From Tribonema minus (lineage: Eukaryota > Sar > Xanthophyceae > Tribonematales > Tribonemataceae), in the NCBI GenBank assembly GCA_017506865.1, contig JAFCMP010000301.1, positions 868,001-932,000 of the forward strand: 64,000 bases of DNA, read 5' to 3'. Position 1 is the stretch's first letter. Each line of letters starts with the position of its first letter. Below, one piece after another: positions 5,046 to 27,778 of the stretch. The position numbers and the translations under genes were made by a program. Below the pieces are notes generated by a model. That model did no database searches, was not told the DNA's origin, and saw only the letters and a program-made list of their open reading frames with translations.

Positions 5046-5968
5046 ATTTGCTCTCAACGCTCTCAAGAAGGGCTTGGTTCTCAACAGGGACAGGAGCTAC
5101 TTGGTCCGGCCTGATACGGAGACTGCTTGGTCTCAAGGAGTTCAGCACCTTCACCGAGTCACTCGGCAAACTGACAACGTTGAAATCACTCAACTTGTAC
5201 CGGTGCAAGTCACTCTTGCAGGTGCCTGAGTCGATCGGCAAGCTGACAGCTTTGACTTCCCTCGACTTGCAGTTCTGCGAGGAACTCGCGAGCCTGCCCG
5301 AGTCGTTCGGCAACCTGACAGCGTTGACTTCACTCGACTTGACTTCCTGCAAGTCACTCGTGAGCCTGCCGAAGTCCTTCGGCAAACTGACAGCGTTGAC
5401 TTCGCTTCAGTTGTCCTGGTGAGAGTCACTCGAATGCCTGCCCGAGTCCTTCGGCAACCTGACAGCGTTGACTTCACTCACCTTGTGGGATTGCAAGTCA
5501 CTCACAGAACTCCCCGAGTCGTTCAGCAACATGACAGCGTTGACTTCACTCAACTTCTACGGGTGCAAGTCACTCGTCAGCTTGCCCGAGTCCTTCGGCA
5601 ACCTCACAGCGTTGACCTCACTCGACTTGGAGGGCTGCGAGTCACTCACGCATCTACCCGAGTCCTTCGGCAACCTGACAGCGATGACTTCACTCAGATT
5701 GGCCTTCTGCAAATCACTCGCAAGTCTCCCTGAGTCATTCGGCAATCTGACGGCGTTGACTACGCTCAGCCTGGAGTACTGCAGAGCGCTCAGCGGTCCG
5801 CCAGAGTCATTCGGCAACCTGACAGCGTTGAAAGGACTCAACTTGAAGTATTGCGCGTCGCTCACGCAGCTGCCCAAGTCCTTCGGCAACCTCACAGCGT
5901 TGATTTATCTTTTTATGTACCTTTGCCCAGCGACAGTACCACAACTGGCCTCCCTTGGGCCTGTATAA
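5046..5968 (+). pseudogene. Leucine-rich repeat region with one in-frame TGA
   Basis: From the splice acceptor at 5045 the frame encodes about 10.5 LRR units of 24 residues with consensus FGNLTALTSLDLxxCxSLxxLPES. The frame is uninterrupted except for TGA at 5420-5422. That codon sits exactly where every other unit has its conserved Cys (TGC or TGT), so a single base change would explain it. The frame then continues unchanged to a TAA at 5966-5968. The final unit degenerates, and the stop lies inside a 38-bp remnant of a retrotransposon tail. LRR arrays of this type bind proteins or ligands. Inferred status: recently inactivated gene, an allele with a nonsense mutation, or a base-call error. 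An open product would need readthrough. Confidence 0.7.
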
Positions 5969-6198: not shown

Positions 6199-7179
6199 CT
6201 ACTTCCTCGGCATGCACTCAGCGCTCTTCGCCATGAACTGTTCGCGAGGCCACCCACGTGCAAGGTGGAACTCCCGCATCTCCGAAAATTTGGCAAGGCT
6301 CCAGCCCCTCGCGCCCGTGCCATCCGCTGCGCTGGTGACAATGGAATTAAGCTCCTTGCACACCAGGCACACGTTTGTGGCAACGTACCCGACTGTCACA
6401 TTCATCCGTTCCAACGACATTTTCCAGTCTCCGTCCAGGGTCAACTGAATAGCGCTATAATATAAGCGCACATGCCGTTCTGCGCAATGTATATTGAGAG
6501 TAGCTCACTGAAAGTCAGGGTGCACTCATTGCCACGCTTGCGCTTTTTCGAATGGCCTCTTGAGCTCTCCACCAGACGTCGCAGCGCGCCGCGCAGCGTC
6601 GAGCGGTCTGTCGTGCTGTAGACGCTGAGGCACTGTCTGCATCCGTTTCTGATCTGTTCGTGAAAGCTCTGTCGGGCCTTGAAGTCCCCACAGATGTGAC
6701 ACATATGCTGCACTTCCCCATAATGTTGTCTGCTCGATGCGGCTTTGTACTGCATGCCTTTCGGGCTCAGCACATCTTCCAAAGGCAACAGGATGCCATA
6801 ACTGGCTGGCTGGCGCCGCTGCCCGTGAAATGCGAACAGAAACTTTTCAGGAGTCCATTTAGGTGTCGTGTTGAACTCGAGGCAGACGTACGTAGCGTGT
6901 AGGTGACGGAGTCGTCTCGTCGATCCAGAGATGTCTGCCAATCCGCACGTCTACCGAGTTGCAAAGGCATCAGAGAAACGCCGTTTTGTTCTTTGTCGCA
7001 CTGCGGAACAGTACGTACATGACACCGGCGTGCGTATCAGCGTACACATGCGTCCGAGCTCGTGCGCACTCTCTGCATATGCTCTGCCTCCCTGAATCTG
7101 CCCTCGCCATCTTATTGAACTGGTCCAACGCCTTGAAAGCTCTGCAAACAGAGCACTGTTGCTGCAGCAGCTGCTGCAT
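6199..7179 (-). pseudogene. HNH endonuclease gene, algal large-DNA-virus type, frameshifted
   Basis: Three minus-strand frames together resemble the zinc-ribbon plus HNH nucleases common in algal large DNA viruses and selfish elements. 7179-6970 starts at ATG after an upstream TAA and carries CSVCRAFKALDQFNKMARA...ICREC. 6941-6441 carries a second finger, CHICGDFKARQSFHEQ...CRQC, a basic stretch, then ELLSIYIAQNGMCAY. The core resumes in another frame at 6471-6199 with DWKMSLERMNVTVGYVATNV and LVCKELN. An extra five bases in the repetitive ATTAT stretch near 6455-6465 break the frame between CAY and the next block. A second frame change lies near 6950-6970. The enzyme would cut double-stranded DNA. 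A decayed viral or homing-type gene is the simplest reading. Confidence 0.62.
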
Positions 7180-8416
7180 CGTGCGCTCTGATTACGCGAC
7201 TGTTGCCGAAGGTATCGTTCTATCGTACCACCGCATTTGTGATATGCTGTAATTGCATGCACCTTCAAGGGGACGAACGCTGGAAGCCAGGCCAACTGAT
7301 TGTTGGCGGTGGTTGCGCTGCTGATAGCGATGAAATTACGTCTGTTCAAGTACGTACGTCGCTCGCCAGTGCAGGTGATAAGATCGTTGCACATGTGCTT
7401 ATTCTGCCACTGCTGCTGAAACACCATGATGCAATGTACGTTATTGTCATGCGTTTGTGTGCAACGGCATTGTACCATGTGGCGATGCGCATATGAAATG
7501 CCAATGTGCACATGCAGTCGCCGTGCCACACTTGAAGGATGCAGTGGGTGCCTGCAACTATACTGTAAGCATACCCATATGATGCGCAGCCCTGCCAACA
7601 TCACCTCAGCAACGTTTGCTGTTTCTGTCAGCAGCACAGCGCTTGCAAAAGGCGGTCGTGATTGCTTCCCCAACAGTTACGCTCACAGCGAATTCTGCAT
7701 GTGCGCACTTATCAGGAACCAATACGCACACAAATCAGAGTGTGGTCCGAGCGGTACACATACCAGGGGTACACACTTGGAACACCGCATTTTGTGTTGG
7801 ATATCCAAATAAACTCTTTAGCATGTTGCCCCACTGCAATCGGGGTGGCCATGCAATCAAGCACTATGGTGATGTCACCTGCAGTGACACGTACACATCC
7901 CCAAATGTATGACTGCCACTTGCTCTGCAATGTTATGGCGACCAGTCTTCTCCACATTGTGTGGCACACCGTGCCCCACGCCAGCATGCGCAGCATCAGT
8001 GACATGCAGCAATGGCATCCGCATCATGCACTCACCTTCTGCTGAGCAAATGAGTCATATTGTCACAGACCAGATACACAATTAAGCAAGGGATGTCATA
8101 TGTATGTGTAGGCACGCGCCAGGCATACTCAGTAGCGCACACTACCTGTAATACCCTCTGAACGGCATGCGCGCCCACTCAAGCGACGCCTCCGTGCGAA
8201 GGTGGTGTGCGACGGCGCAGTTGCAACGCCTCAGTGCAAGCAAATGGAATGCACAGTGAGTGACTTGAGCCGTGCCTGCCATACTAGCTGTGGAGAATAA
8301 TAGCCGCAAGCAATAGCATGCAGGGCACAATGCAATTTATGACATCAGACACAGCAGTAACACTCAAAATCAGAAGTGCTCGCGTCATAAATATATATAC
8401 AATGTGCCTATGATAT
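7180..8416. other. Stretch without recognised gene; holds one duplicated 92-bp block
   Basis: No conserved domain was recognised on either strand. Bases 7615-7706 are repeated at 11336-11427 (listed separately). The remainder contains short open frames without family motifs. Confidence 0.6.
7615..7706 (+). repeat. Duplicated 92-bp block, copy 1
   Basis: This segment, containing CAGCACAGCGCTTGCAAAAG and a CTTCCCCAACA block, recurs at 11336-11427 with about ten differences. One shared reading (ALAKGGRxCFPNxYA...FCMC) keeps its cysteines in both copies. Both copies start after a pyrimidine tract followed by CAG, like a splice acceptor. Confidence 0.75.
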
Positions 8417-9160
8417 TTACAGCGTGACCGCATCTTCCAAGCTACGATGTGCAGCGACAGCACGGTCACTAGAAGGGCAGCCATTGGCAAGTGCCCACTC
8501 TACTGCTTCCAGTGCTAGCTTCTTCTTCGATGCAAATTGGCACCTGCTGGCATCCAGTATCACAGAAGAATCCCATGGGCATCCGGCACTGTGAAGCCAT
8601 TTGAGCATGGCCAGGTCACCCCGTTCGGCAGCCCCCGTACACGTGCATGACCGCCATGGAGTGCCGACCTCATGCAGCCACCACCGAATGTCCATATGCC
8701 CCATCTCAGCCGCATCCCTACAATGAATCGGTCCAAAACGCACATCATGAAAGTCACAGACACTGCTATCGTGTAGGTACTGTAGAACATTGATGCGATT
8801 GGCACACACTGCCCCCTTGCCAGCACGATGCGTATAGTAGTAGAGGTAGGGCCGATTGAGTCTGGGGTGCAGCAGGTGCTTGACCAGCGCAACATCGCCG
8901 CGGCGGGCGGCGAACTCTAGACAATACTCTCTGCACGCTTGACATCCGTTGGCGCGTGCCCATTCGTAGACAGAAATAGAGGACAACACCGCCTGTACCG
9001 ACATCCCCCTGAAATCGCCCCGGTGTTTACCATGCGGTACGTCTGGTTTGATGTACGCTGCACGCCAGCCACTGCTCACGGTGGCCAGTATGAGGTAGTG
9101 TCGGGGCAGAAAGCTGAAAACTCGAGTCCAGATATCTGCAGAGTCATCGTCAGAATTCCA
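8417..9160 (-). CDS. F-box/ankyrin-repeat-like protein
   Basis: The open frame runs from about 9160, just after a possible acceptor TGACAG, to the stop at 8417. The N-terminus reads DIWTRVFSFLPRHYLILATV then SSGWRAAY, an F-box-like helix pair (LP...L..VS..W). It is followed by degenerate ankyrin-type units: VYEWARANGCQACREYCLEFAARRGD, INVLQYLHD, MDIRWWLHEVGTPW, LAMLKWLHSAGCPWD, AVEWALANGCP. No ATG was found in frame upstream before a stop, so a short 5' exon is probably missing. Such proteins usually act as substrate adaptors of SCF ubiquitin ligases. Units here are far more diverged than in the neighbour at 10.3-11.2 kb, so this is an older or less homogenised family member. Confidence 0.68.
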   Translation of the reverse strand, partial: WNSDDDSADIWTRVFSFLPRHYLILATVSSGWRAAYIKPDVPHGKHRGDFRGMSVQAVLSSISVYEWARANGCQACREYCLEFAARRGDVALVKHLLHPRLNRPYLYYYTHRAGKGAVCANRINVLQYLHDSSVCDFHDVRFGPIHCRDAAEMGHMDIRWWLHEVGTPWRSCTCTGAAERGDLAMLKWLHSAGCPWDSSVILDASRCQFASKKKLALEAVEWALANGCPSSDRAVAAHRSLEDAVTL

Positions 9161-9513
9161 CTGTCAGTTGTCAGTATTAAGTCAACAGATTCATCTCTCT
9201 CTTCAGCCGAGCTGCTCCAAAGAGACACACTAAGTTGGCGTTGACATGGACACAGGATTCAAGGTAACTCACCTCGGCTCTCCTGAGTTTCCCCCTTGAT
9301 GTCACAGGCAGCAGCAATCGCCAGCACCTTCGCCTGCTTGCGTGGTTGCATTGCACAAAACACCCTGCACCGTTATCAGAGGCTGCTTTGCTGCTAGTAC
9401 TGCCGCCGCTGCTGCCGAGTATCTGCTGCTGTTTCGTGTCGCCTCTCTCCTGCTTCCACTGCTGCTTTCTGCTGCTTGCTGCTACCTGTACTGTTACAAC
9501 TGCTGCTGGTATT

Positions 9514-9690
9514 GTGCTGTACTGTTTATGGCAGCCTCACTATTCTCACCGTCGTCCTTTGTGGTGTGCAGCACGTGGGGGCATTGTGCTGTACTGTTTA
9601 TGGCAGCTTCACTATTATTGCTGTACTGTTTATGGCAGCCTCACTATTATCACCGTCGTCCTTTGTGGTGTGCAGCGTGGGGGCACTTTT
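9514..9690 (+). repeat. Imperfect tandem repeat of about 70-100 bp
   Basis: The segment CTGTACTGTTTATGGCAGC followed by CTCACTATT and CACCGTCGTCCTTTGTGG occurs twice, with a truncated third copy of its first half between them. It lies in 9161-10253, where I see no gene. That stretch is rich in TGCTGC repeats at 9380-9500. Confidence 0.75.
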
Positions 9691-10253
9691 TTTGTGAAGT
9701 TCAACTACTTCATTTTGAAGTTGGTCAGGTGTGTGTGTTCTTAGGAGCGATAGCAGCGGCAGCTGTACTAGCATCAGGGCGTGATCTTGAGAAGCAGCCA
9801 CATCAGCAGCTCTCTGCGCCGGGAGCGGAAGTGCTCTTGTCTGGTAAGTTGCTCTCAAAACATAAAGCTGGTCTTGCTGTTGTTTGTTGCTGCTAGCGAG
9901 CTGCCTTTGTACAGGACAGAGCAGATGCACGCACGCGTAGTCACGTGGCCTTGGATAGAGTTAATACTGGCACGTTTTAGGACTACGTGAGGGAATTTTT
10001 GGGATGAGGGGAGCTAGATCGGGGTGGGGTAGCCATACTTGCATGCGGCGATGTTTTGTTGCATGCTGCTTTCATTCATTCTATTGTAGGCTAGTCAGAC
10101 CCTCATGTGATTAAAGTACATTCTGTCATGAACTGAAGTTTACCCTGGTGTACACAGATAAGCAAGAGATCTAGTACACTTCGCGCTAATACATGCACCA
10201 CTCGCAATGTGATTTGCCTGTTTGCCTGTTCATTTATGTTACAGGTCCTGAAC

Positions 10254-11150
10254 ATGCCAATGACGACACGTGCACAGCGCGCTCGTGCACAACCCTGCTG
10301 GGACAAGGGTCCTCTGATCAGAAATGTGCTGGAATATCTAGTGCCTCGCCACGGCATCCAAGTTATGCTCGTCTGCAAGTCGTGGATGAGGATATTCAAA
10401 GGCATGGCCGGTGGCGCACCCCCATGCACATTCATGGGGGGCATGGTGCGGTCCGTAGCGCTGCTGCGCTGGGCACGTGCCCAGGGCTGCCCGTGGGACG
10501 CACGAACGTGCGCATGGGCGGCGGCGGGTGGGCGCCTTGACGTGCTGCAGTGGGCACGCGCCGAGGGCTGCCCATGGGACGCACAAACGTGCTCATGGGC
10601 GGCGGCGTGCGGGCGCCTTGACGTGCTGCAGTGGGCACGCGCCGAGGGCTGCCCGTGGCATGCAGAAACGTGCGCAGATGCGGCGTCGGACGGGCGCATT
10701 GATGTGCTGCAGTGGGTACGCGCCAACGGCTGCCCATGGGGCAAATACACATGTTCATTTGCGGCAATAGGTGGGTACCTCGGCGTGCTGCGATGGGCCC
10801 GCGCCAACGGCTGCCCGTGGGACGACACAATAACTTGTGCAATGGCGGCGGGCGGAGGGCACCTTGACGTGCTGCAGTGGGTACGCGCGAACGGCTGCCC
10901 ATGGGACGCATGCACATGCTACACGGCGGCGCAAAGCGGGCACCTCGAAGTGCTGCAATGGGCCCGCGCCAACGGCTGCCCGTGGGATGCAAATACGTGC
11001 GCACGGGCGGTGGAAGGCGGGCACCTCGAAGTGCTGCAATGGGCCCGCGCCAACGGTTGCCCGTGGGACGCAGATACTTGCGCACGGGCGGCGCGAAGCG
11101 GGCACCTGGACGTGCTGCAGTGGGCTCGCACCAACGGCTGCCAGGAGTAA
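10254..11150 (+). CDS. F-box plus ankyrin-type 27-residue repeat protein
   Basis: The ATG at 10254 (second ATG 10260) follows a pyrimidine-rich TTATGTTACAG that looks like an intron end, so a 5' exon or UTR intron is likely. Residues 1-50 contain an F-box-like region (GPLIRNVLEYLVPRHGIQVM then LVCKSWMRIFKG). About nine units of 27 residues follow, with consensus HLDVLQWARANGCPWDAxTC. The frame ends with TAA at 11148-11150. Units are nearly identical at the DNA level (81-bp periodicity), which suggests recent unequal exchange or gene conversion. By family it should recruit substrates to an SCF-type ubiquitin ligase; substrate unknown. The same repeats occur at 2-556 and, more diverged, at 8417-9160 on the other strand. 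Confidence 0.82.
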   Translation: MPMTTRAQRARAQPCWDKGPLIRNVLEYLVPRHGIQVMLVCKSWMRIFKGMAGGAPPCTFMGGMVRSVALLRWARAQGCPWDARTCAWAAAGGRLDVLQWARAEGCPWDAQTCSWAAACGRLDVLQWARAEGCPWHAETCADAASDGRIDVLQWVRANGCPWGKYTCSFAAIGGYLGVLRWARANGCPWDDTITCAMAAGGGHLDVLQWVRANGCPWDACTCYTAAQSGHLEVLQWARANGCPWDANTCARAVEGGHLEVLQWARANGCPWDADTCARAARSGHLDVLQWARTNGCQE

Positions 11151-11335
11151 TTAGTATTGAACAGCTAGCGCAACAAGGATACACTTTTGGGCTATGGCCC
11201 CAAGTACAGACTGAATGAATGCTTTTCAATGCAAAATCTTGGCGTGTGATCACCTATATCTTATGTGCTTGCTGCTTGCCTGCTTTGACAGTGCTTCCTA
11301 ATTGCTGGTGACGCACAGTGTCATGATATCTTGCG

Positions 11336-11427
11336 TTTGCTGTTTCTTTCAGCAGCACAGCGCTTGCAAAAGGCGGTCGTGCTTGCTTCCCCAACAATTA
11401 TGCGCGCGGTGGATTCTGCATGTGCTG
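11336..11427 (+). repeat. Duplicated 92-bp block, copy 2
   Basis: Matches 7615-7706. It lies about 190 bp downstream of the ankyrin-type gene. A frame that includes it stays open to 11709; its second half (RLTFAENLERAAPSFVRLIT, then hydrophobic stretches) could be a membrane-protein exon. I cannot assign it to a family. Confidence 0.7.
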
Positions 11428-11842
11428 CGGGTGACGGCGCAGGCTGCCGCGGGAGACAGGTTGACGTTCGCGGAGAATCTGGAGAGGGCGGCGCCTTCAT
11501 TCGTGCGGCTCATCACCGTAGGCGAGTCTTTCATCATGATGGCGTGGTCTACGAATCCAGGACTGGACCTGTTGAACGTGGGGGTGGCCGTGACAGTCGC
11601 CAACCTCGTAAGGGAAATTGTGGCCCTCTTCGAACTTGTCCATTTCTTCACACGCAGTATTTTTGAGCAGAGTGTACATGAAACCTTACTGCTGTACGAC
11701 AAAGTATAACAAGCACAATTTATGTTTTTTTGTCATCACAATGCATTTCGCCACCTGGTGCGCATGAACACATTGCATGCATATGAAAAGAGTGAATGAA
11801 CGGTTAATTGAGTTTCATTTACCACTTCGCTCGCATCTGAAG

Positions 11843-12250
11843 CTACAGAGTAGCTGGAGCGCACTTTACCATTCTTGCCAACTTGTGTATGTGATCATAC
11901 AACTCTTGCGCCACCCATAGCGGAGTGTCCGCGTCGGACTCGCGGAGCCACTTGTGAAACTCCGCTTTGAATGGAAACCCGGTATTAGAAAGAGTAGCAG
12001 CTTCAGGATCGGCTTCAATGATACTGTAGATCGCCATTTGAAGTCGCTCCGATTCGCTATCGAAGTTGCCCTTGAACTGCCACTCCCCTGGAGCGTGAGG
12101 GGTGCCGATCTTCATCTTCTTGCGCGGACCCATCGCTTCCCACTCGCGCTTTTCCTTCTCGTACTTGACTTGAGATTCCTCAAATTCCTTGTTTTGCTTC
12201 TCAATCAACTCTTTAGCGCGCTGCAAAACTTGCTCAGATGTGAGATGCAT
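11843..12250 (-). CDS. Small coiled-coil protein of unknown function
   Basis: This 135-residue frame starts at ATG 12250 (MHLTSEQVLQRAKELIEKQN). Residues 4-45 are rich in Glu, Lys and Gln with heptad-like spacing, predicting a coiled coil. A basic PRKKMKIG stretch follows, which could be a nuclear localisation signal. The C-terminal half is mixed alpha (ERLQMAIYSIIEADPEAATL, FKAEFHKWLRESDADTPLW). The frame stays open 37 codons further upstream, but that part is made of TTTCGTTCTCTCG-like repeats. No family recognised. Codon use and composition look coding. It lies about 130 bp from the satellite array. Confidence 0.55.
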   Translation of the reverse strand: MHLTSEQVLQRAKELIEKQNKEFEESQVKYEKEKREWEAMGPRKKMKIGTPHAPGEWQFKGNFDSESERLQMAIYSIIEADPEAATLSNTGFPFKAEFHKWLRESDADTPLWVAQELYDHIHKLARMVKCAPATL

Positions 12251-12383
12251 TTTGTCTCGGGTTGAGAGGGGAGTGGTTGTTTGTAAATGCAGTGTACAAC
12301 GAACGAGAACATTTCGTTCATCATGTCGTTTCGTTCTCTCGTTGTTTCGTCCTCTCGTCATTTCGTTCTCGTTCTACTGGACG

Positions 12384-15300
12384 TCACAATGAACCATTTA
12401 AAGTTACATTATACCTGAAGTAGTCAAGGAGTGACGAATGCAGGCCTTTGCGTGGACGAGAGCATGCACGTTGGCTAGTTTTTTAGGTATTTTTACAGCT
12501 GTTGACTGCTTTCAGAGCCCTGGGTGGCCCTAAGACGGGTCTGTCTGTGGGGGGAGAGTCTTGTAGCTTTCTTTAGTATTCCTGCTAGTATGTGGGGGAC
12601 AGACGCTTGCAGGTGCTTTGTTGGGGGTGATGTGGGGGGCGGGTGTGGCGTGCAAGCTTTGCATGCTACATCCAAGAGTGAAAACAAGGCGACACACCTA
12701 CAACGTGGCATTTCCACAGCCACAAGTGGAATGTAATAAAAGTACGAACGTTGACGGCCTACGGAGATGTGCAGAAGTCTACTGGCCGTCAGTGTGAGCC
12801 AGTTAGGTCATATTATACCTGATTTAACCTAGAAGTAAAGAACACAGGCCTTGAGTGAAAGAAACCAGGCGCGTTTGGCTGTTTTTTTAGTATTTCTTAC
12901 CACAATGGACGGCTTTCAGAGCGCTTCGGACGTACTGTGGTGGACCTTCAGCCACAGAAATCTGCTCACGCACACCACGAACGGAGGAGATATGACCAGT
13001 TACAGACCTGGGTGAGGTACCGTACCACTCGCGAATGGTACGGTACCCAGGTTTCTGGTGTAAGAATTTGCGCTGGTACCGTACCATTCGCGAGTGGTAC
13101 GGTACCTCAATATTGAAGTTATGGAGGTGCCTCCAAACAAGACGAGCGCAAGCCACGCATGCCTGAGACTTGGCTAGTTTTCATCAGAAAGAACGATCGT
13201 TGACGGCCTACGGAGTTGTTCAGACGTCTACCGGACGTCACAATGAACCATTTAGGTCATATCATACCTGAATCAGCCTATAAGCAACGAACGCAGACCT
13301 TGCGTGGAAGAGAAAAGGCATGGCTATTTTTTAGGATATTTAACCACCGTCGACGGCTTTCAGAGCGCTTCGGACGTACTGTGGACCTCTAGCCGTAGAA
13401 TTCTGCTCGTGTAGTTCCTGATTGAACGTAACAACGAGCGCACACCACGAACGGAGGAGATATGACCAGTTACATACCTGGGTGGCGCAACTTCAAGTTG
13501 AGGTACCGTACCACTCGCGAATGGTACGGTACCCAGCTTTATGGTGTGAGAATTTCACGCTGGTACCGTACCATTCGCGAGTGGTACGGTACCTCAACAT
13601 TGAAGTTATGGAGCTCCCTCCAAACAAGACGAGCGCAAGCCACGCATGCCTGAGACTTGGCTAGTTTTCATCAGAAAGAACAATCGTTGACGGCCTACGG
13701 AGCTGTTCTGGCGCCTACTGTACGTCACAATGAACCATTCAGGTCATATTAGACCTGAATTAGCCTAGAAGTAGCGAACACAGGCCTTGCGTGGAAGAGA
13801 ACAGGCACGTTTGGCTGTTTTTTTAGGTGTTTTTTCCACGGTTGACAGCTTTCAGAGCACTTCGGACATGTTGTGGACCTCTAGCCGTAGAATTCTGCTC
13901 GTGTAGTTCCTAAATGAACGTAAAAACAACGAGCGCACACCACGAACGGAGGAGATATGACCAGTTACAGACCTGGGTGGCGCAACTTCAAGTTGAGGTA
14001 CCGTACCACTCGCGAATGGTACGGTACCCAGGTTTCTGGTGTGAGAATTTTGCGCTGGTACCGTACCATTCGCGAGTGGTACGGTACCTCAATATTGAAG
14101 TTATGGAGATCCCTCCAAACAAGACGAGCGCAAGCCACGCATGGCTTGACATTGGCTAGTTTTCATCAGAAAGAACGAACGTTGACGGCCTGCGGAGCTG
14201 TTCTGGCGCCTACTGTACGTCACAATGAACCATTCAGGTCATATTTTATCTGAATTAGCCTAGAAGTAGCGAACACAGGCCTTGCGTGGAAGAGAACCGG
14301 CACGTTTGGCTGTTTTTTTAGGTGTTTTAACCACGGTTGACGGCTTTCAGAGCACTTCGGACGTATTGTGAACCTCTAGCCGTAGAATTATGCTCGTGCA
14401 GTTCCTAAATGAACGTAAAAACAACGAGCGCACACCATGAACGGAGGAGATATAACCAGTTACAGGCCTGGGCGCCGCAACTTCAAGTTGAGGTACCGTA
14501 CCACTCGCGAATGATACGGTACCCAGGTTTCTGGTGTGAGAATTTTGCGCTGGTACCGTACCATTCGCGAGTGGTACGGTACCTCAATATTGAAGTTATG
14601 GAGGTCCCTCAAAACAAGACGAGCGCAAGCCACGCATGGCTTAGATTTGGCTTGTTTTCATCAGAAAGAACGAACGTTGACGGCCTGCGGAGCTGGTCAG
14701 GCGTCTCCCGGACGTCACAATGAACCATTTAGGTCATAATATACCTAAATTAGCCGAGACGTAACGACCGCAGGCCTTGCGTGGACGACAGTAGGCACCT
14801 TTGGCTATTTATTAGGATTTTTAACCACCGTCGACGGCTTTCAGAGCGCTTCAGACGTACTGTGGACCTGTAGCCATAGAACTCTGCTCGTGTAGTTCCT
14901 AAATGAACGTAAAAACAACGAGCGCACACCACGAACGGAGGAGATATGGCCAGTTACAGGCCTGGGTGCCGCAACTTCAAGTTGAGGTACCGTACCACTC
15001 GCGAATGGTACGGTACCCAGGTTTCTGGTGTGAGAATTTTGCGCTGGTACCGTACCATTCGCGAGTGGTACGGTACGTCAATATTGAAGCTATGGAGCTC
15101 CCTCCAAACAAGACGAGCGCAAGCCACGCAGGCCTAAGATTTGGCTAGTTTTCATCAGAAAGAACGAACGTTGACGGCCTACGGAGCTGGTCAGGCGTCT
15201 ACTGTACGTCACAATGAGCCATTTAGGTCATAATATACCTGAATTAGCCGAGAAGTAACGAACGCAGACCTTGCGTGGAAGAGAAAAGGCACGTTTGGCT

Positions 15301-17160
15301 ATTTTTTAGGATTTTTAACCACCGTCGACGGCTTTCAGAGCGCTTCAGACGTACAGTGGACCTGTAGCCGTATAATTCTACTCATGTTGTACCTAAGTGA
15401 GCGTTGAAACATCGAACGCACACCACGAACGGAGGAGACATGACCAGTTACAGAACTGGGTGGCGCAACTTCAAGTTGAGGTACCGTACCACTCGCGAAT
15501 GGTACGGTACCCAGGTTTCTGGTGTGAGAATTTCATGCTGATACCGTACCATTCGCCAGTGGTACGGTACCTCAATATTCAAGTTACGGAGCTCCCCCTA
15601 ATCAAGACGAGTGCAAGCCACGCATGGCACAGATTTGGCTAGTTTTCATCAAAAAGAACGAACGTTGATGGCCTGCGGAGCTGGTCAGGCGTCTACTGTA
15701 CGTCACAATGAGCCATTTAGGTCATAATATACCTGAATTTGCCTATAAGTAACGAACGCAGGCCTTGCGTGGAAGAGAACATGCACGTTTGTCTGTTTTT
15801 GTAGGTATTTTTACCACGGTTGACGGCTTTCAGAGCGCTTCAGACGTACTGTGGACCTGTAGCCATAGAACTCTGCTCGTGTAGTTCCTAAATGAACGTA
15901 AAAACAACGAGCGCACACCACGAACGGAGGAGATATGACCAGTTACAGGCCTGGGTGCCGCAACTTTAAGTTGAGGTACCGTACCACTCGCGAATGGTAC
16001 GGTACCCAGGTTTCTGGTGTGAGAATTTTGCGCTGGTACCGTACCATTCGCGAGTGGTACGGTACCTCAATATTGAAGTTATGGAGGTCCCTCAAAACAA
16101 GACGAGCGCAAGCCACGCATGGCTTAGATTTGGCTTGTTTTCATCAGAAAGAACGAACGTTGACGGCCTGCGGAGCTGGTCAGGCGTCTCCCGGACGTCA
16201 CAATGAACCATTTAGGTCATATTATACCTAAATTAGCCGAGACGTAACGACCGCAGGCCTTGCGTGGACGACACTAGGCACGTTTGGCTATTTTGTAGGA
16301 ATTTTAACCACCGTCGACGGCTTTCAGAGCGCTTCAGACGTACTGTGGACCTGTAGCCATAGAACTCTGCTCGTGTAGTTCCTAAATGAACGTAAAAACA
16401 ACGAGCGCACACCACGAACGGAGGAGATATGACCAGTTACAGGCCTGGGTGCCGCAACTTCAAGTTGAGGTACCGTACCACTCGCGAATGGTACGGTACC
16501 CAGGTTTCTGGTGTGAGAATTTTGCGCTGGTACCGTACCACTCGCGAATGGTACGGTACCTCAATATTGAAGTTATGGAGCTCCCTCCAAACAAGACCAG
16601 CGCCAGCCACGCATGGCTTGAAATTGACTGGTTTTCATCATAAAAAACGCACGTTGACGGCCTACGGAGTTGTTCAGGCGTCTACCGGACGTCACAATGA
16701 GCCATTTAGGTCATATTATACCTTAATTAGCCTATAAGTAACGAACGCAGACCTTGCGTGGAAGAGAAAAGGCACGTTTGGCTATTTTGTAAGATTTTCA
16801 ACCACCGCCGATGGCTTTCAGAGCGCTTCAGACGTACAGTGGACCTGTAGCCATAGAACTCTGCTCATGTTGTACCTAAATGAACATCAAAACATCGAAC
16901 GCCCACCACGAATTGAGGAGATATGACCAGTTACAGACCTGGGTGCCGCAACTTCAAGTTGAGGTACCGTACCACTCGCGAATGGTACGGTACCCAGGTT
17001 TCTGGTGTGAGAATTTTGCGCTGGTACCGTACCATTCGCGAGTGGTACGGTACCTCAATATTGAAGTTATGGAGCTCCCTCCAAACAAGACAAGCGCAAG
17101 TCTCGCACAGCTGAGATTTGGCTAGATTTCATCAAGAAGGACGAACGTTGACAGCTAAGC
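12384..17160 (+). repeat. Satellite: ten tandem units of about 494 bp with paired 32-bp near-palindromes
   Basis: Nine units carry two 32-bp elements whose starts are 60 bp apart. First elements start at 13016, 13502, 13997, 14492, 14986, 15480, 15975, 16469 and 16963, so the period is 494-495 (486 once). Second elements start at 13075, 13562, 14057, 14552, 15046, 15540, 16035, 16529 and 17023. Each 32-mer has arm GGTACCGTACCA, core CTCGCGAA or TTCGCGAG, and the complementary arm, so it is a palindrome except for one base pair. The second element is the exact reverse complement of the first. Exceptions: unit 8 has both in the same orientation; units 4 (first), 5 (second) and 6 (second) have one or a few changes. 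An earlier unit (about 12384-12780) keeps the flanks but lacks the palindromes. Function unknown. Confidence 0.95.
13016..13106. other. Representative inverted pair of near-palindromes
   Basis: This is the first of the nine pairs. The two 32-mers at 13016-13047 and 13075-13106 are separated by 27 bases (28 in the other units). Each can fold alone, and the pair can also fold as one longer hairpin of 32-bp arms. Cores contain TCGCGA and ends contain GGTACC. Such a symmetric arrangement would suit a dimeric DNA-binding protein or cruciform formation, but no protein partner is visible in the window. Confidence 0.85.
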
Positions 17161-17225
17161 AGCTGTGCGGACAGGGGGTCTTTCATTTCCCCTGTTTTTC
17201 CCCTCTGTATTTCCCCTCCTGGCAG

Positions 17226-18497
17226 CAGGGGAAATAAAATTTTGACTTCCCTCTACTCAGGGGGACATGAATTTTTTGTTTCCTACAGTTCAATGAAGGG
17301 TCAAGCGCAACATCGAATTCCGGGGGCAGATCTGGCCCGCTAACGCCTACTGGAAGCGCGATGCCGACCTCATGGGAACCGCCGTGCGCAGCGTGCTCTG
17401 AACTGCAAGCGTAGGTGCAATGCATGTGCAAGATCGCTGCAATGTGGTAACCGCTGCAATTTGCTGATGCCCAACAGCTTCAGTACACCACACGAGGCAA
17501 GAATCAAGAGACGTGTCCTGTCGTTTGTAAATGTGTGTTTCATATTGACTTGTATGCCAACACTCATTGGTCACACACAGTATAGAGCCTTGTGCCCCAG
17601 AAACACTTTCACTCTAGTTAGTTTCATGGGCACCCACGGCATGCACGCCTGCGCGTCCTCGCAGACTTGATTGACGGAAGTCCATGTTGGCAGCGAACTG
17701 CCACTGGGCGGCCTGCGTGCTGGCAGCAAACTGCAACCCTACCGATGGTGGGCTAGAAGGACGTCTGCATTCATCACCCCCTTGAGCGAGGCAATCGTAA
17801 TGAGGTCAGGGCGAACGCTCGCCACTCTTGTGAGCACGAGTTGTCCCGCATGCTGTATAGCGGGGCAGTCTCTGTTCTGCAGCATCCCATCAACAACTTG
17901 CTCCACATGCATGTCCCATATGTGTTGAAGGTCTGCGTCGTACATTCCCTCCATGACATTGAGCACTGCCCCCCACATCATACCCTTGAACGCAGAGGGT
18001 GGCCTTACAGGAACGTGGGAGCCCATCGCCGTTTTAAAGTCGAGTCGAACACCCTCCTCGCCCTGCATCCTGTGGCTCCCGGGGGCTCCCTGTGGCTCCC
18101 TGTTGCCTACTGAGGGTTGTTGTGGGGTAGTGAAAGAGTGGCTCACAGCTGTGCTCTTCGCTGAGAACATAAGCAGGCGACAAACAGATTGACATTATAT
18201 GCGCCGCGAGAACATTGGCCCTGTATGCGCCGAGGTCTACCCCTCCCAGCAGGGGAAATAAAAGACCCCCTACCCCTCCAGCAGGGGAAACAAAAGGAAG
18301 GGAAAACTTCCTCGAGCAGGGGAAATAAAAGACCAGTATCCCCTCGAGCAGGGGAAATGAGAGACCCCTTCCCCCCTCCAGCATGGGAAACAAAAGCAGG
18401 CGGGGAAATAAAAGAAGAACAGGGGAAACAAAAGTTTGACTTCCCTCTGCTCAGGGGACATGAAATTTTTGTTTCCCACAGTTCAATGAAGCGTCAC
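17226..18497. mobile_element. 1.2-kb segment bounded by 80-bp direct repeats
   Basis: About 80 bp at 17226-17305 (AGGGGAAATAAAATTTTGAC through CAGTTCAATGAAGGGTCA) recurs at about 18420-18497 in the same orientation with few changes. Outside the left copy are inverted TTTCCCC units. Inside the right end, 18240-18435 holds about seven units of a roughly 30-bp minisatellite containing CAGGGGAAATAAAAGA. The arrangement resembles a small element with terminal direct repeats or a duplication-flanked insertion. No transposase is seen; the internal minus-strand exon at 17743-18170 may be captured. Confidence 0.5.
17743..18170 (-). CDS. Possible armadillo-like repeat exon
   Basis: A 143-codon frame starts at ATG 18170. 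Its second half (MWGAVLNVMEGMYDADLQH, QNRDCPAIQHAGQLVLTRVA, PDLITIASLKGVMNADVLLA) follows the spacing of armadillo-like units of algal proteins, in which an 'ALWNLA...AI...GG' pattern recurs. A donor-like ATCG/GTAGGG lies at its 3' end (17743/17742), which would continue to an exon I cannot find. The assignment is weak. It sits wholly within a repeat-bounded segment, so it may be a captured or dead fragment. Confidence 0.33.
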
Positions 18498-18863: not shown

Positions 18864-19814
18864 TTGCCACAGCAGCCTGAGCCACTGAGGTGTCCACTAT
18901 GCAGACTGGCATTTTGGCAGCTTGGTCAGAAAGAGGACAGCAAACAGCGAGGCAAACTGTCAGCTGCGAGCCGCATGGCACCGGTAGTGGCCCAATCCAA
19001 CGGTGGTAGCTGCACGAGGTCGATGCTGAACTTCCCTGAGGCGAGCACATCACACTGTCAGCGAAATCCGGCGGCAACATACGCCAAGGGCATCCGGCAG
19101 CAGGTTGATCACGACCCATCCGGTGACCGTGCCCCTTCAGGCAGCAGTACCTGCAGCACTGGGGCACACCATGCCAAGCGTGTGCAGGAGATGAGCACCA
19201 TGTATCATAGTTGCACGGCAGAAGACTTCCTACGGGTGGTAAGGAAGCTGAGTGCATGCACAGGTGCCTGCGGTCTGGTCCATATGTCAGCCAGCGCGGG
19301 GCAGAGGCAATGCGCGTTGACCTTGCCATGCCACACGTGTCGACGGAATGGAAGCGCCCCCACGCGCGCACGCCCGGCAGTACCCCCGAGCCACTTCGAG
19401 GGCGGGGGTGCGGGTAGCGACGGCGCGGCCGCGGCGGCGGGGGCTGCCGCAGCGGCACCTCCAAAGCCACCGGCGGTGCCGGCTAGTAGCGCTGCCAACT
19501 CAAAGTCCAGCAAGAAACGCCCGGCGGCCACGGCAACCGGCGCGCAACGCCGGCGCCGAATGGCAGCTGCTGCGGCACCGCCTGGCAGTGCCGGCAGCCG
19601 CACTCAGTCTGACAGCCTGAGGCTGCAGGACAGCAGCCCCCCCCATGGGACGGCCGTGGGATGGGCGGACATGGACGTGGACCCGCCGGACAATCATTAT
19701 GCCGCGTCACCGCCCCCCCCCGACCACTACCACCAGTGGCAGGCCCTCAAAGCCCCAGGCACGAGCATCCCTGGCTTGGGACCTCTCGACGCCCTCGGTC
19801 GTCCACGCACTTGA
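18864..19814 (+). pseudogene. Retrotransposon N-terminal region (gag-like, low complexity)
   Basis: A frame of 316 codons starts MPQQPEPLRCPLCRLAF with a possible CxxC knuckle and another CHTCRR near residue 155. It continues as Ala/Pro/Gly-rich low complexity with a basic KSSKKRPAATATGAQRRRRM stretch that could bind nucleic acid. The likely true protein leaves this frame near 19780 and continues in the +1 frame (WDLSTPSVVHALDQTNEADL). No catalytic motif is present. Its role is inferred from position upstream of the reverse transcriptase. Confidence 0.5.
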
Positions 19815-22800
19815 CCAGACCAATGAGGCGGATCTACTGCAGCAGCTGCTGCGGTTCACCACGACCTCCAACCCCTTCCGCACTCAGCTGCAGTGCACCC
19901 AGTGGGCACGGCTAGTGGAGCACGCCACACGACTACTGGCGGACGCCACAGACAGTGCACGTGAGGCGGCACGGGTGCGCCTCCACCATGGTGCCGGGGC
20001 GTTTGCTCATCAGGTTTCTCAGACTCTAGTGCAGCGCGGCTACAGGCTGCTGCACCTGCTAGCAGCAATGGCCTTTGGTAGGCGACCGGAGGGAACCGGT
20101 ATGCCGCCTGCGGCCCGGCTGGCAGCGTTGCTGTCTGGCGACTTCGCGGAGCTACTGAGAAAGACGATGTCAGCAGCAGCGGCGCTGCGGGCCCCCAAAC
20201 CAAACAACGCAGCTACGGCGTCGGCACAAACGAACTTCGATGCCGACTGGACGGAGGCTGACTCCAGGCAGCAAACAGCATGCGCTGCCCTCTCAGGCAA
20301 GCGACGGGGGGTAGGCCTGGCTGCCGCACTACTAGAGGCGCGTGAAGCATGCGCCCAGCAGACGAGGTCACGGCATAGGTGCTGGCAGCAAAGCACCCTG
20401 AAACTGGCACCCGGCCGGGGGTAGTCGATACGCCAATGGAGCAAGTGCGCGGCCTGGTACGCGACGCCCGGCGGCACTGCTTGCACAGCGCAGGGGTGGC
20501 AACGTCCGCCGGGCTCGCTGGCAGCGGCAGTCCTGTCTTCGAAGCGGGTCAGGCGCATGATCACAGCGATAGGCCTGAGGATGCTGCCAGCGCAGCCGGA
20601 CGGCGCCTCAAGGTGGAGGCGACAGACATACTGTCGACCTTGTCCGCAGCAGGGGCGGGGAAGGCAGGAGGGCTGGACGGCCTACGCTATGAACACCTCT
20701 TGATGGCCGCTGGGCCTGGTGCACCAGTGAAAGCAGCCACCCGCCCCGTGGGCAGTGCCTCACCAGGACTAGCTGGTGATTCAGAATCAGATGTGATGGA
20801 ACCGGCATTCGCCCATCAACTGGCCAAGGTGTTCACGACGCTGCTTATTGAGCCTGAACTGCTGCCGGAGCAATCGCAACGGCTTCTCCGCGCCGCGGCC
20901 CTCTCAGGCATAGGACAGAAGCGGCGTCCGATCGCCTGCTCCAGTGTCTGGCGCAGACTCCTCGGGTCCACAGCGGCACGGAGCGTCAAGGGCAAGACAT
21001 CGGGGCTGCTGGCCTCCATGTCGCAGTTTGGCGTAGGATACCGGTCTGGCGTCGAGCATGTGGCAGCGCGCGCGGGCGTGTGGCACGAGTTGTATGGCAC
21101 CACAATCCAGCTGGACTGTGAGAACGCATTTAACAGTGTGGATCGCGCCGCCATTGTGCGGGGGCTTGTGCTCTTCTGTCCGGAGCTGCTCCCGCACTTT
21201 GAGTCCGTATACTGTGGTGACACTGCCCCAGAGATGCGAGTGGAGGTGAACGGCGAAGCTCGCATTATCTGCTCCCACCTAGGGTGCCAGCAAGGGGACC
21301 CTCTAGGGCCGCTGTACTTTGCAGTGGCAGCGGCCTTCCTACTCTTCTACCCTGATGGAGTGAATGCGACGCCCGGCAGTATGCCGGCCTACAGCCACAG
21401 CACAGCGGAACCGCCAGCCCCGCACTGCGCTTTCCTGGATGACCTCAATGTGCTGCAAGCTGCCTATTTCGACGATGCAGCAGCCGCTGGGGTGGCAGAG
21501 GTGATCCGCCGGCTGGCGGCAGGGGGCCTACGCGTTCGACCAGACAAGGTCGCTGGCCATCGCCATGCGCGGCACAGTGTTTGATGAAGCGGCCAGAGCA
21601 CGCCTGCGCGCCCTTGACATACCGTTTGTGGACGCCACCATGCCAGAGTCCAGTCAGGGCTTTACATCGGTCGGGGTACCGGTAGGGCACCCAGCCTATG
21701 TGCATGCTGCCATGAGCAAGCATCTTGCTGACGCAGGGACATGGCGATTGTCGTGGCAGCTGGCTGGAATGGCGCGGCATCACCTACAGGCAGCACAGTT
21801 CATTCTGCGCAGGTCACTGACGAAGCGCATGGGCTTCTTAGCTCGGGTCGTTGACACGGCTTTGAGTGAGACATTGTTGCACGCGTTTGACGGGTCTGTG
21901 CATGGACGCTCAAACGCATGCTGCACCTGCACGGCTGCGCTACCGCGGCAGCCATGAAGTCACACCTGCTGGCCGCCTGCACTGCTGGTGACAATGAGGA
22001 AGCCAGCAGTGGCAGCGTGCTGGTATTGCCGCGCTTGGGCCCGCCAGAACTCACGGACATCGCAGTGCCACTGCGGGCGTCACGGTTGCCGGAGCGACGA
22101 GGCGGTCTGGGCATGCCGCTTTTGGGGCTACTGGCACCAGCCGCATACACGGCCCAGGCATGCACAACACTGCGGCCGGCAATAATTCATGCCACTGTGG
22201 CAGCAGGGGCCCTGAGGCTTTGTACTGACGAACACGGCGCAGTCACCTGGTTCGTGCAGCACTCATGCGCAACACGCGAGGACCAGGGACTGCCACCAAT
22301 CATCGAGGCCGTGCGACGCTCTACGCGAGCGCTGACAGCTGATGGCGGCGAAAAACCACGCACAGCTGTGGCCGAGCAGCTCCCAGCATCGTTGCTACGG
22401 TGGGCAGCAGATACGACGGCCGCAGCGTTGACGCTCCCCACTGCGGTGCAAGCGATCTACGCCGCAACTGTCGTCACGGAGACGGTGACCACTGAGCCAG
22501 CCCCACACACCCACGGCATTGTGCCTGGCGCCGAGGCGGCCGCTGCGGCGGTGACCGTACCTGGCCCTCAAGCCGCTGCCGCGGCTGCCTCTTCCACGCC
22601 CGCTAAAACACAAACTAGCGCGGAAGAAAGCAGCTGCAGCGGCGGGCAGGAGGACGACAACGACGACTGGGAGGCCTATGCTGACGAGATCTGCAGGAAG
22701 GTAGTGCCCCGCCGCCGGCGCGGTCACTTCACGCACGGACTACAAGCCGGCCTTTCAAATGTTATCCGACGTCAATACGAGGATTGCCTGGTGAAGGACC

Positions 22801-22826
22801 TAGAGGCTGCCTCGGCTGGTGCCACG
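19780..22826 (+). pseudogene. Reverse transcriptase of the non-LTR element
   Basis: Motifs in order: GKAGGLDGLRYEHL (20650s, fingers), QKRRPIACSSVWRRLLG, VGYRSGVEHVAARAG, motif A LDCENAFNSVDR (about 21113), motif B GCQQGDPLGPLYF (about 21284), motif C FLDD in place of the usual YADD (about 21433), then GLRVRPDK and, after a frame change near 21550, the thumb (GFTSVGVPVG...) and RLPERRGGLGMPLLGLLAPA. The four segments are 19645-20424, 20379-21584, 21565-21957 and 21918-22832, in alternating frames, each overlapping the next by tens of bases. Both catalytic acidic motifs are present, so only the frame breaks disable it. Known role of the family: target-primed reverse transcription. Confidence 0.82.
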
Positions 22827-23779
22827 ACCTAGAGGCTGCCTCGGCTGGTGCCGTGGGCAAGCCGACGCAGGCTGCACTTATTGGTGACTCGCGCGACACC
22901 ACTGGCAGCCGCCGCCGCCAACAGGCTACCGCGCAGGTCATGGCGCAGCTGCGCAGCCAGCGTGCGTCCGGGGCAATGGCGTGGATGAGCGTGCCACCCA
23001 CTGCCAATGACCGCCCGGGTGCGGCGCCCATGTCCAGTATGACAGCAGCCACGATGATTTTGGTTGCGATCTTCATAGACGGGTGGGGCATACAGGGCGA
23101 GGTGTGCCCATGGCGGTGCAGTGACGTGAGCCCCACCTCCACGCATGCGATCAGCTGCCCCAGCCAGCACATACGGCGGCACAACGCGACACACACTGCC
23201 CAAAAGCGGTGCCTGCAGCGCATCTTGAGACAGCACCATGTCTCTATTGTCCACAATGAGGACGCTAGCGTTCTCAAGGTACCGGGGTATCGGGCGGACA
23301 CAGTCATTGACCCAGGGTGTCTGCACTTTAGCAGTGCATACCGTAACAAGGGAATAGTGCTAGACACAAGTGTGCGCGCGCCCACAGCGAGCTCGTATTT
23401 GACAGGCAAAACAAATGCCTCGAACACGGACGGCTATGCTGCTGGGGTGGGGGAGGACGCGAAGGTCAAGCACCACACCGGCACCTTGACGTCATCTTGG
23501 GCTTTTGTGCCATTCGTGCAGGAGTCGTACGGACGGCTGGGCAAGCGGACAAGCCTTTTTGTCAAGGAGTTGGCAATGCACTCAGCACTGTGCTCAGGGG
23601 GGGGGAAGGCAGATGTGTTACGCAAGGCCGGGTTAGCTAAGCGTCAGATCCTCATTGAGCTGAGCATATCGCTGGCGCGGGAGTTGGCGGAGCGCGTCAT
23701 GGCGTACACACGCGGAGCGCGAATGCTGGGCTGTGTTGCAGCGCCGGTATCCAAGCTCTTAGGGCACAGCGCAGACTAG
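22784..23779 (+). pseudogene. Restriction-like endonuclease domain of the element
   Basis: This frame follows the RT after a 29-bp tandem duplication. It carries a zinc-knuckle of the form CPWRC...HAISCPSQHIRRHN (about 23105-23190), then the PD-(D/E)XK-like core: YRADTVIDPG, GIVLDTSVRAP, a Lys in GEDAKVKHHT, and FVPFVQESYGRLG. This matches the layout (CxxC, SCPxxxxRHN, DVxVxxP, FVPFVxExxG) of RLE domains at the end of algal and protist non-LTR retrotransposons. The domain would nick the target strand to prime reverse transcription. The stop TAG at 23777-23779 is followed by the 3' tail. Confidence 0.72.
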
Positions 23780-23862
23780 GCTGCTGCGTTGACGCAAGCT
23801 TTTCGATTGCATAGGCAAACCGGCCTCCCTTGGGCCTTTATAAATACAAGTCAATACGTCCA
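23758..23862 (+). repeat. Retrotransposon 3' tail (master copy)
   Basis: The end of the coding region and about 83 bases of 3' UTR, finishing GGCCTCCCTTGGGCC then a TTTATAAATACAAG-type end near 23862, recur at 28747-28807, 50955-51053 (minus), 56046-56157 (minus) and, diverged, 5947-5985. The shared end point in all copies marks the true 3' end of the element. GGCC...GGCC can pair as a short stem, which could be the recognition structure for the reverse transcriptase. Confidence 0.85.
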
Positions 23863-26877: not shown

Positions 26878-27778
26878 GTGGTAACTAACACAGATGCAAA
26901 CAACAAGTATTTGCGCAGGGTCGGCGAGAAGCACTTGCACGTTGCTGCAATGAAAGTCGATCAAGAGGACGCAGACGCGGCGCAGGCCAGGGAGCACCGG
27001 CAGGTCCGGTCCACGTTTGACCTGTGCGAGAGAGTGGTGCAGGCGGAGCGGCTTCAGCTGGAGCTAGATCACGAATTTCCTCGCGAGCCCCCCCCGCCCC
27101 CGCCCCCGCCCCCGCCCCCGCCCCCGCCCCCGCCCCCGCCCCCGCCCCCGCCCCCGCCCCCGCCCCCGCCCCCGCCCCCGCCCCCGCCCCCGCCCCCGCC
27201 CCCGCCCCCGCCCCCGCCCCCGCCCCCGCCCCCGCCCCCGCCCCCGCCCCCGCCCCCGCCCCCGCCCCCGCCCCCGCCCCCGCCCCCGCCCCCGCCCCCG
27301 CCCCCGCCCCCGCCCCCGCCCCCGCCGCCGCCCCCGCCCCCGCCCCCGCCCCCGCCCCCGCCCCCGCCCCCGCCCCCGCCCCGCCCCCGTCCCCGCCCCC
27401 GCCCCCGCCCCCGCCCCCGCCCCCGCCCCCGCCCCCGCCCCCGTCCCCGCCCCCGCCCCCGCCCCCGCCCCCGCCCCCGCCCCCGCCCCCGCCCCCGCCC
27501 CCGTCCCCGCCCCCGCCCCCGCCCCCGCCCCCGCCCCCGCCCCCGCCCCCGCGCTTCGCGTCAAGGGTTTTTGCATCGCCCCCGTCGTCCGGGACTACGT
27601 CGCCAGGCACCAGATATCTACTCACATCTCGGCGGACACGTACATATCAGCAATAAGGAATGCCTTCAAGAAGCAGGTCAGCGTGCCAGTGGGCGACCAG
27701 CACAGGAAGATTGAGAACAAGTATAAGCATGACCTCACAAGGGCCTGCGAGGAGTATTTCGACAATGTAGGAGCCTGA
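26878..27778 (+). pseudogene. Unknown protein interrupted by CCCCCG microsatellite; frame lost across repeat
   Basis: The left part (MVTNTDANNKYLRRVGEKHL..., then a Glu/Arg/Leu-rich helix ending LELDHEFPRE) is in one frame. The right part (GFCIAPVVRDYVARHQIYSH, ISAIRNAFKKQVSVPVGDQH, ENKYKHDLTRACEEYFDNV, stop TGA 27776-27778) looks equally coding but is in another frame. Between them is a 464-bp CCCCCG tract with a C4 interruption near 27380. In the left frame the tract encodes poly-Pro then Pro-Arg repeats. Either repeat slippage has destroyed the gene, or the assembled repeat length is wrong and the real allele is open. No family recognised. Confidence 0.45.
27088..27551. repeat. CCCCCG hexanucleotide microsatellite, 464 bp
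   Basis: About 77 copies of CCCCCG with a few interruptions: CCGCCGCC near 27324, a C4 run near 27380, and CCCCCGTCCCCG at about 27386, 27440 and 27500 (spaced about 54-60 bp). The complementary strand is a G-rich tract able to form quadruplexes. It lies inside an otherwise coding region. Confidence 0.95.

Follow-up and report, generated by a model that had tools for sequence, protein, structure and literature searches.

The stretch of DNA analysed here, referred to as the window, comprises 64,000 nucleotides of the xanthophyte alga Tribonema minus (C301:868001-932000, in a genome of 158 Mb and 554 contigs). It contains an array of nine 494-bp units, each carrying a pair of mirror-image palindromes that together form one 119-bp double hairpin. 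This module is shared with virus-like relics on other contigs, its arms are conserved, its loop has a fixed length and is inverted in some copies, and the array lies at a single locus. The reading favoured here, tentatively and as a possibility that falls a little short of likely, is that the module is a predicted protein-binding double hairpin that probably derives from a small Rep virus, namely its origin or control region, and was carried with local duplications. Such a module would serve a protein from a small Rep-encoding virus-like element, of the circular Rep-encoding single-stranded DNA (CRESS) type, as a site of sequence-specific binding and folding, and would most likely be part of the non-coding origin or control region of that element. 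Passing presumably from virus to host, a copy would have been incorporated into a 494-bp repeat of the host, located in a gene cluster of a single contig, C301. Segmental duplication would have spread this repeat over ~65 kb, and local tandem duplication would have produced the nine units. The sequence of the arms would be kept because it matters, or did until recently, to a binding protein; the loop would only set the distance, so that its sequence could drift and could be flipped by exchange between the inverted arms.

The tandem array was detected by Tandem Repeats Finder at positions 13013-17166 of the window, on the forward strand like the units described below, with a period of 494 bp, 90% matches and 8.4 copies. 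Its nine head-to-tail units of ~494 bp are ~90% identical to each other, and their palindromes span 13016-17054. The palindromic 32-mer is made up of GGTACCGTACCA, an 8-bp core and TGGTACGGTACC. When up to three mismatches were allowed, 18 sites were found in the window (the worst has two), against none in 100 shuffled sequences. As a preliminary description of this DNA had stated, the 32-mer is a palindrome save for one base pair, which holds for the consensus, and the two palindromes of a unit (P1 and P2) start 60 bp apart in eight of the nine units, namely units 2-9; in unit 1 the distance is 59. Two further statements of that description stood only in part. P2 was said to be the exact reverse complement of P1, which is the case in units 1, 2, 3, 7 and 9 (7 of 14 copies once dispersed copies are added) and not in the other four, and unit 8 has a P2 that equals P1 in direct orientation. 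The array was placed at 12384-17160; at its left edge, a blastn comparison of two units with the window found a partial unit without palindromes (12374-12521, forward strand), and the palindrome-bearing part begins at 13016.

The palindrome pair of unit 1 occupies 13016-13106 (P1 13016-13047, P2 13075-13106), and its outer left arm is mostly gone. The 119-bp double hairpins of the following units lie at 13489-13607 (unit 2; P1 13502-13533, P2 13562-13593), 13984-14102 (unit 3, the query copy; P1 13997-14028, loop 14029-14056, P2 14057-14088), 14479-14597 (unit 4; P1 with one mismatch), 14973-15091 (unit 5; P2 with one mismatch), 15467-15585 (unit 6; P2 with two mismatches), 15962-16080 (unit 7), 16456-16574 (unit 8; P2 with a P1-type core, that is, a palindrome flipped in place) and 16950-17068 (unit 9). 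The 376-bp rest of the unit is represented by the forward-strand copy at 13608-13983.

P1 and P2 are the arms of a single inverted repeat and not independent dyads. The repeat measures 119 bp, a further 13-14 bp being included at each end, and its outer arms (AACTTCAA..TTGA) enclose two inverted 12-8-12 near-palindromes with a 28-bp loop between them. As a single DNA strand the 119-mer folds into a long hairpin with a 45-bp stem (-53.2 kcal/mol with DNA parameters, z -14.9), and one palindrome by itself folds as a 12-bp stem. The spacing of 60 is common to all copies compared, unit 1 excepted. The near-perfect palindrome has a 6-bp palindromic centre, TCGCGA, which is absent from the copy on contig C46, where the core is non-palindromic. 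The strength of the fold is also what would be expected of a source of hairpin RNA, whose transcribed stem would be diced to yield small RNAs for silencing a related virus or repeat, and Rfam gave 10 microRNA-precursor matches at E<=0.1 within 11500-18000, all of them under the gathering scores. This explanation is nevertheless very unlikely: the arms of such a stem need match only each other and not one sequence across loci, and contigs C24 and C126 have a single short palindrome.

The preliminary description had noted that the arms stay nearly identical while the flanks drift, and a comparison of substitutions in palindromes and flanks, which it had proposed, confirmed that the palindromes diverge far less. 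Among the nine units, 6 of 64 palindrome columns are variable (pi 0.021) versus 149 of 375 flank columns (pi 0.135; Fisher p 8e-7). For units 2-9 the counts are 6/64 and 137/375 (p 5e-6). In a sliding control on units 2-9, in which two 32-column blocks 60 apart were moved along the unit, 11 of 494 placements had no more than the observed 6 variable columns, with a mean of 20.9. The least variable 32-column windows listed begin at 13981-13994. Loop (6/28) and outer arms (4/27) are variable at an intermediate level, and P1 (1/32) is better kept than P2 (5/32). The same pattern was found between diverged copies: when five dispersed C301 copies were compared with unit 3, the flanks differed at 212 of 926 aligned sites and the palindromes at 8 of 320, six of these eight being located in one decayed copy. 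This count leaves out contigs C335 and C522 and the left flank of the 856-kb copy, which holds an insertion resembling a long interspersed nuclear element (LINE); its p-value of 8e-21 is descriptive only, as all five comparisons share unit 3. The earlier proposal that some process keeps the palindromes constant is thus borne out both in the array and between diverged copies.

Conservation of the arms extends to other loci. A nearly identical 12-bp arm, the outermost base apart, was found in otherwise different contexts, namely the C301 unit, the virus-like block of C335 and C522, C24 and C126; the contexts on C24 (a 132-bp array) and C126 (a single site) share ~10 further bases with each other. 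The outermost base varies on C24, on C126 and in one C335 arm. The one-base asymmetry of P1 is maintained in C301, C335 and C522. Loop length is 28 in C301, in C335 and C522 and in C46; loop identity is 13/28 between C335 and C301 and 20/28 between C46 and C335. On C46 the 8-bp core differs and the arms are mostly constant. Near-constant arms, a free core and a fixed distance fit constraint by a dimeric DNA-binding protein, and conservation of the module far above its surroundings suggests that some protein reads it or formerly did. Of the roles named in the preliminary description, a protein-bound element appears, on sequence grounds, to be the best reading of this conservation.

The proposed viral source of the module is based on relics outside the array. 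Lone 119-bp copies without the 376-bp flank are located at C335:446290 and C522:15498. The C335 module lies 30 bp upstream of a 141-amino-acid (aa) frame, in a block with Rep-like, capsid-like and Lipase_3 frames. The same frames are found on C490, where the module is decayed and the counterpart of the 141-aa frame lies inside a 185-aa frame, and on C46 a LINE-like insertion interrupts the module. Between C335 and C522, the blocks are ~92% identical nearest the module and 77% further away. The Rep-like frame was matched on three contigs (298 aa on C335, 202 aa on C522, 359 aa on C490) and the capsid-like frame on C335, C490, C522, C46 and C517. Lipase_3 was over its cut-off of 22 bits on C335 and C490 (25.1 and 25.4 bits), with GHSLG present. 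Three database relatives of the C490 Rep-like frame were found at 34-42% identity (E 1e-54 to 3e-78), one of which, P0001, is encoded on a 4,042-bp contig; in comparison with P0001, one stop interrupts the frame on C335, and that on C522 is truncated. The single relative of the capsid-like frame, P0005, is on a 4,349-bp contig. An alignment of four Rep-like sequences contains what we take to be the HUH, Y..K, Walker A and TSN motifs in all four and the Asp-Asp of Walker B in three. The HUH endonuclease and superfamily 3 (SF3) helicase motifs of a CRESS-type Rep are thereby present in the relics. A structure model of P0001 gave 51 viral structure matches at E<=0.001; among the best 50 of these, 20 are named, all as replication proteins, 19 of them from CRESS-type or uncultured circular viruses and one from a microvirus. 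The Rep domain of wheat dwarf virus, a geminivirus, was at rank 10 when the same model was searched against PDB structures. Judged from their frames, the relics would represent a small virus-like element of 4-5 kb encoding Rep, capsid and lipase proteins.

Other searches added little to this picture. The palindrome pattern had no exact match in IMG/VR and GTDB genome contigs, and the 119-mer had none in phages or plasmids. No relative was confirmed when viral contigs were scanned with the Rep-like proteins and with the relative of the capsid-like frame. A protein search with the C335 298-aa frame returned nothing at 1e-3 (the 359-aa C490 frame did find relatives). Sequence searches of PDB yielded no useful match for either the Rep-like or the capsid-like frames, and PHROGs gave nothing useful save a weak esterase/lipase match. 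The model of P0005 was uninformative (mean predicted local distance difference test score, pLDDT, 32.8).

Several observations weigh against a viral origin of the module. On C46 the left arm of P1 carries three changes, and the palindromes on C24 and C126 are single and unpaired. C522 has no listed frame of >=80 aa where the 141-aa frame would begin. The P0001 model is weak, with a mean pLDDT of 48.6 and viral-match TM-scores (template modelling scores) of ~0.15-0.25 by query length; in PDB it had no match reaching 0.001, and the best matches were unrelated PII-like proteins. Pfam RNA_helicase stayed under its cut-off (19.9 of 21.5 bits). The 376-bp flank had no blastn match (word 7, E up to 1) to nine virus-like or palindrome loci, the Rep-bearing relics included. 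The hairpin is common to unit and relics, and of a CRESS-type nonanucleotide the end regions searched hold no more than a trace, the 6-mer GTAATA at L022:592 (C335). No target duplication, a mark of miniature inverted-repeat transposons, was seen by eye, the flanks of the module differing between contexts, and the unit matches held no module-less unit spanning the junction, although no dedicated search for an empty site was made. With regard to the unit itself, no rep fragment was seen in it by nucleotide blastn against the nine loci, a search that included no translated comparison.

The loop of the module has been inverted in part of the C301 copies. In 3 of 14 copies (at 832, 837 and 839 kb) its sequence is reverse-complemented relative to the remaining 11, and the outer arms and palindromes of the flipped copies keep their orientation. 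A tree of the flanks grouped the copies at 832 and 839 kb (ultrafast bootstrap 86) and left 837 unplaced, so that one or more inversion events are possible. Could the hairpin maintain itself? The module could be a fold-back element in an ordinary tandem repeat, in which strand switching or gene conversion corrects the four near-identical 12-mers against one another while units homogenise around the hairpin, with no need for selection or a protein. That arms do exchange is shown by the inverted loops and, in unit 8, by the flipped P2, and a similar inversion is known from plastid trnH-psbA, where a 25-27-bp loop is inverted between inverted repeats of >=18 bp (PMC2903610). Variable columns also increase with distance from the hairpin centre, as conversion tracts around a break-prone hairpin would predict: among nine units they number 9/60 within 30 bp, 7/60 at 30-60 bp and 26/50 at 200-250 bp. 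The trend is, however, weak outside the 119 bp (rho 0.13, p 0.01 for nine units; rho 0.08, p 0.12 for units 2-9), and the asymmetry of P1 stays in C301, C335 and C522. Strand switching among four arms can equalise them within a copy, and does not account for nearly the same 12-mer at loci with unrelated surroundings. Self-correction as the whole explanation is considered rather doubtful.

Loop inversion is also the expected trace of recombination or telomere resolution at both palindromes. The 32-mer could thus be the cleavage site of an enzyme of the tyrosine-recombinase superfamily, either a telomere resolvase (with TCGCGA as the 6-bp centre) or a recombinase (with 12-bp arms and an 8-bp core), and the inverted loop the footprint of cutting and rejoining. 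Phaeovirus-like tyrosine recombinases have been reported in Tribonema, as has a phaeovirus with a telRL-like palindrome and 6-bp centre, in a recent study (PMC13236599, 2026). The telomere resolvase catalytic domain PF16684 (ResT-TelK_cat) is abundant in the present genome, with 51 matches of which 28 are over the cut-off (12 strong at 70-102 bits and 16 near it, two of these 28 passing only when neighbouring matches are counted), and was present in 1 of 14 control genomes. A 363-aa frame matches a solved protelomerase at 4e-12. The mostly constant arms and different core of C46, together with precise loop inversion in 3 of 14 copies, would also fit such a site. Against it, none of the 51 PF16684 matches is on C301, C335, C24 or C126. 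Among contigs with near-intact palindromes only C522 has one, ~1.6 Mb away, and the match on C46 is ~120 kb from the relic. Two of the 51 resolvase neighbourhoods (3.2 and 2.8 kb, with frames at L048:1177-2268 and L049:1206-2393) contained no perfect palindrome of >=22 bp. The core on C46 is non-palindromic. A classical tyrosine recombinase was rejected, the genome having a lone PF00589 match, on C182 and under the cut-off. Cre-type recombinases require more than 28 bp between inverted sites. A cleavage site of this superfamily is accordingly considered unlikely. Distinctly improbable is its fullest version, in which the 32-mer is a telomere-resolvase-type site in a eukaryote with dozens of such genes, the paired sites and flipped 28-bp loops are footprints of cutting, hairpin closure and reversed rejoining in the algal nucleus, and the sites are common to small Rep-encoding elements.

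The distribution of the unit in the genome is local. A genome-wide search for the 32-mer, as the preliminary description had recommended, found 36 sites with up to three mismatches and none with the reversed control; 27 are on C301 (821-885 kb, 65 kb), four on C24, two each on C335 and C522, and one on C126. With the 8-bp core left free there were 38 sites (control 1), the two extra being on C301 and C46. The 376-bp remainder of the unit had at least 20 genome matches, all at C301:825-885 kb and all in one orientation, and a local search revealed a more diverged copy at 821 kb. These genome counts are lower bounds. A single C301 cluster thus dominates, and a genome-wide satellite was rejected. 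The suggested centromere, segregation or host-origin satellite would fit the tandem layout and conserved dyads; with nine units in one place, relatives within 65 kb of one contig in 158 Mb and an array set among duplicated repeat-protein-like frames, it is extremely unlikely.

Segmental duplication is the best explanation for the dispersed units, because C301:851-855 kb shares blocks with window 6506-11425, frames judged ankyrin-like by eye included, and the nine-unit array is best explained by local tandem duplication. The single orientation of all 20 flank matches and the shared blocks fit segmental duplication over rolling circle. A rolling-circle satellite replicon with the 494-bp unit was not adopted, as the array ends off the palindromes; one dispersed copy, at 821 kb, ends at a palindrome edge. 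In the window, ankyrin-like and leucine-rich-repeat-like frames in 72-81-bp repeats were noted by eye at 26-550, 10462-11142 and 5154-5903, and the ankyrin-like frames recur at C301:853-855 kb as a local duplication.

A LINE-like element, repeat X, was considered as a carrier of the palindromes and rejected. It is found at C301:855760-856030, at C301:840 kb and on C24, C126 and C46, is 5'-truncated, has the 3' end GAATTAATAAAAA and GTAC-rich target duplications, and does no more than insert at targets rich in GTAC; insertions of it lie within palindromes on C46 and at C301:856 kb. Its sites include window 62370-62394, L019:4261-4530, L018:2507-2634, L024 (C24) and L025 (C126). The genome search for it gave 327 first-look candidates, of which 40 were scored, with 42 matches.

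A second small array is located on C24 and consists of three 132-bp units with a palindrome in every unit; because of it, the cruciform-driven amplifier named in the preliminary description may still apply. Further unrelated palindromes lie less than 1 kb from those of C24 (L024:7049-7104, 56 bp, one mismatched pair) and C126 (L025:5509-5542, 34 bp, perfect). Apart from these, no other perfect palindrome of >=22 bp outside the family was present in 13 stretches totalling 156 kb. C24 also carries a 2.6-kb element (L024:1914-4527) with inverted repeats of ~345 bp (95% alike) rich in TGTAACACTT and several frames, none with a Pfam family over the cut-off. Elsewhere in the window, long frames at 18864-23800 resemble by eye a retroelement bearing a reverse transcriptase, and a 460-bp repeat of the CCCCCG type at 27088-27552 is open in several frames.

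The 14 copies on one contig and the relics elsewhere provide a comparative system for one question: is a trapped viral cis-element still read, or does it repair itself? The analysis also records virus-like relics encoding Rep, capsid and lipase in a xanthophyte, with protein relatives on ~4-kb contigs, and documents a genome rich in telomere-resolvase-like genes. Relics and resolvase genes together could be used to test whether small Rep elements share sites with large integrating algal viruses. A literature search found no description of this element, which is not proof of absence.

Several known systems share features with the module. The terminal hairpins of parvoviruses are nested palindromes in a larger inverted repeat and occur in flip and flop orientations. 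The module has the same nested palindromes in a larger inverted repeat and both orientations; in contrast to those hairpins it is internal and not terminal, and no parvovirus gene was seen. Like the hairpin-associated minute inversions of plastids, the module has loops of 25-28 bp flipped between inverted repeats, whereas it is nuclear, repeated and mostly kept in arm sequence across loci (PMC2903610). With telRL of phage N15 and the phaeovirus site it shares a palindrome with a 6-bp centre, and the enzyme family is abundant in T. minus; unlike telRL, the 32-mer occurs in pairs 60 bp apart, has a slight asymmetry, falls short of the 56 bp of telRL and was not found beside a resolvase gene (PMC13236599). 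Bacilladnaviridae are small single-stranded DNA viruses that encode Rep, a capsid protein and a phospholipase-like protein with GxSxG (PMC11903649; PMC8613185). The relics resemble them, and an endogenous Rep fragment of diatoms, in being associated with stramenopiles and in having Rep-, capsid- and Lipase_3-like frames. Assignment to this family was rejected on its Rep signature, FP in motif I and two glutamates in Walker B (PMC11903649): the C490 Rep-like frame has HVFIT and FDD, without either. Among the systems compared is also the geminivirus-related DNA (GRD) of Nicotiana, whose units hold an origin-like hairpin region of a small Rep-encoding single-stranded DNA virus and a truncated rep gene (PMC5014472). 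Whereas GRD units contain that gene, the 494-bp unit matches the relics only in the 119-bp module, and the Tribonema hairpin consists of two palindromes and has no nonanucleotide that could be recognised. Both are nuclear direct repeats in which each unit carries a hairpin common to small Rep-virus or virus-like DNA.

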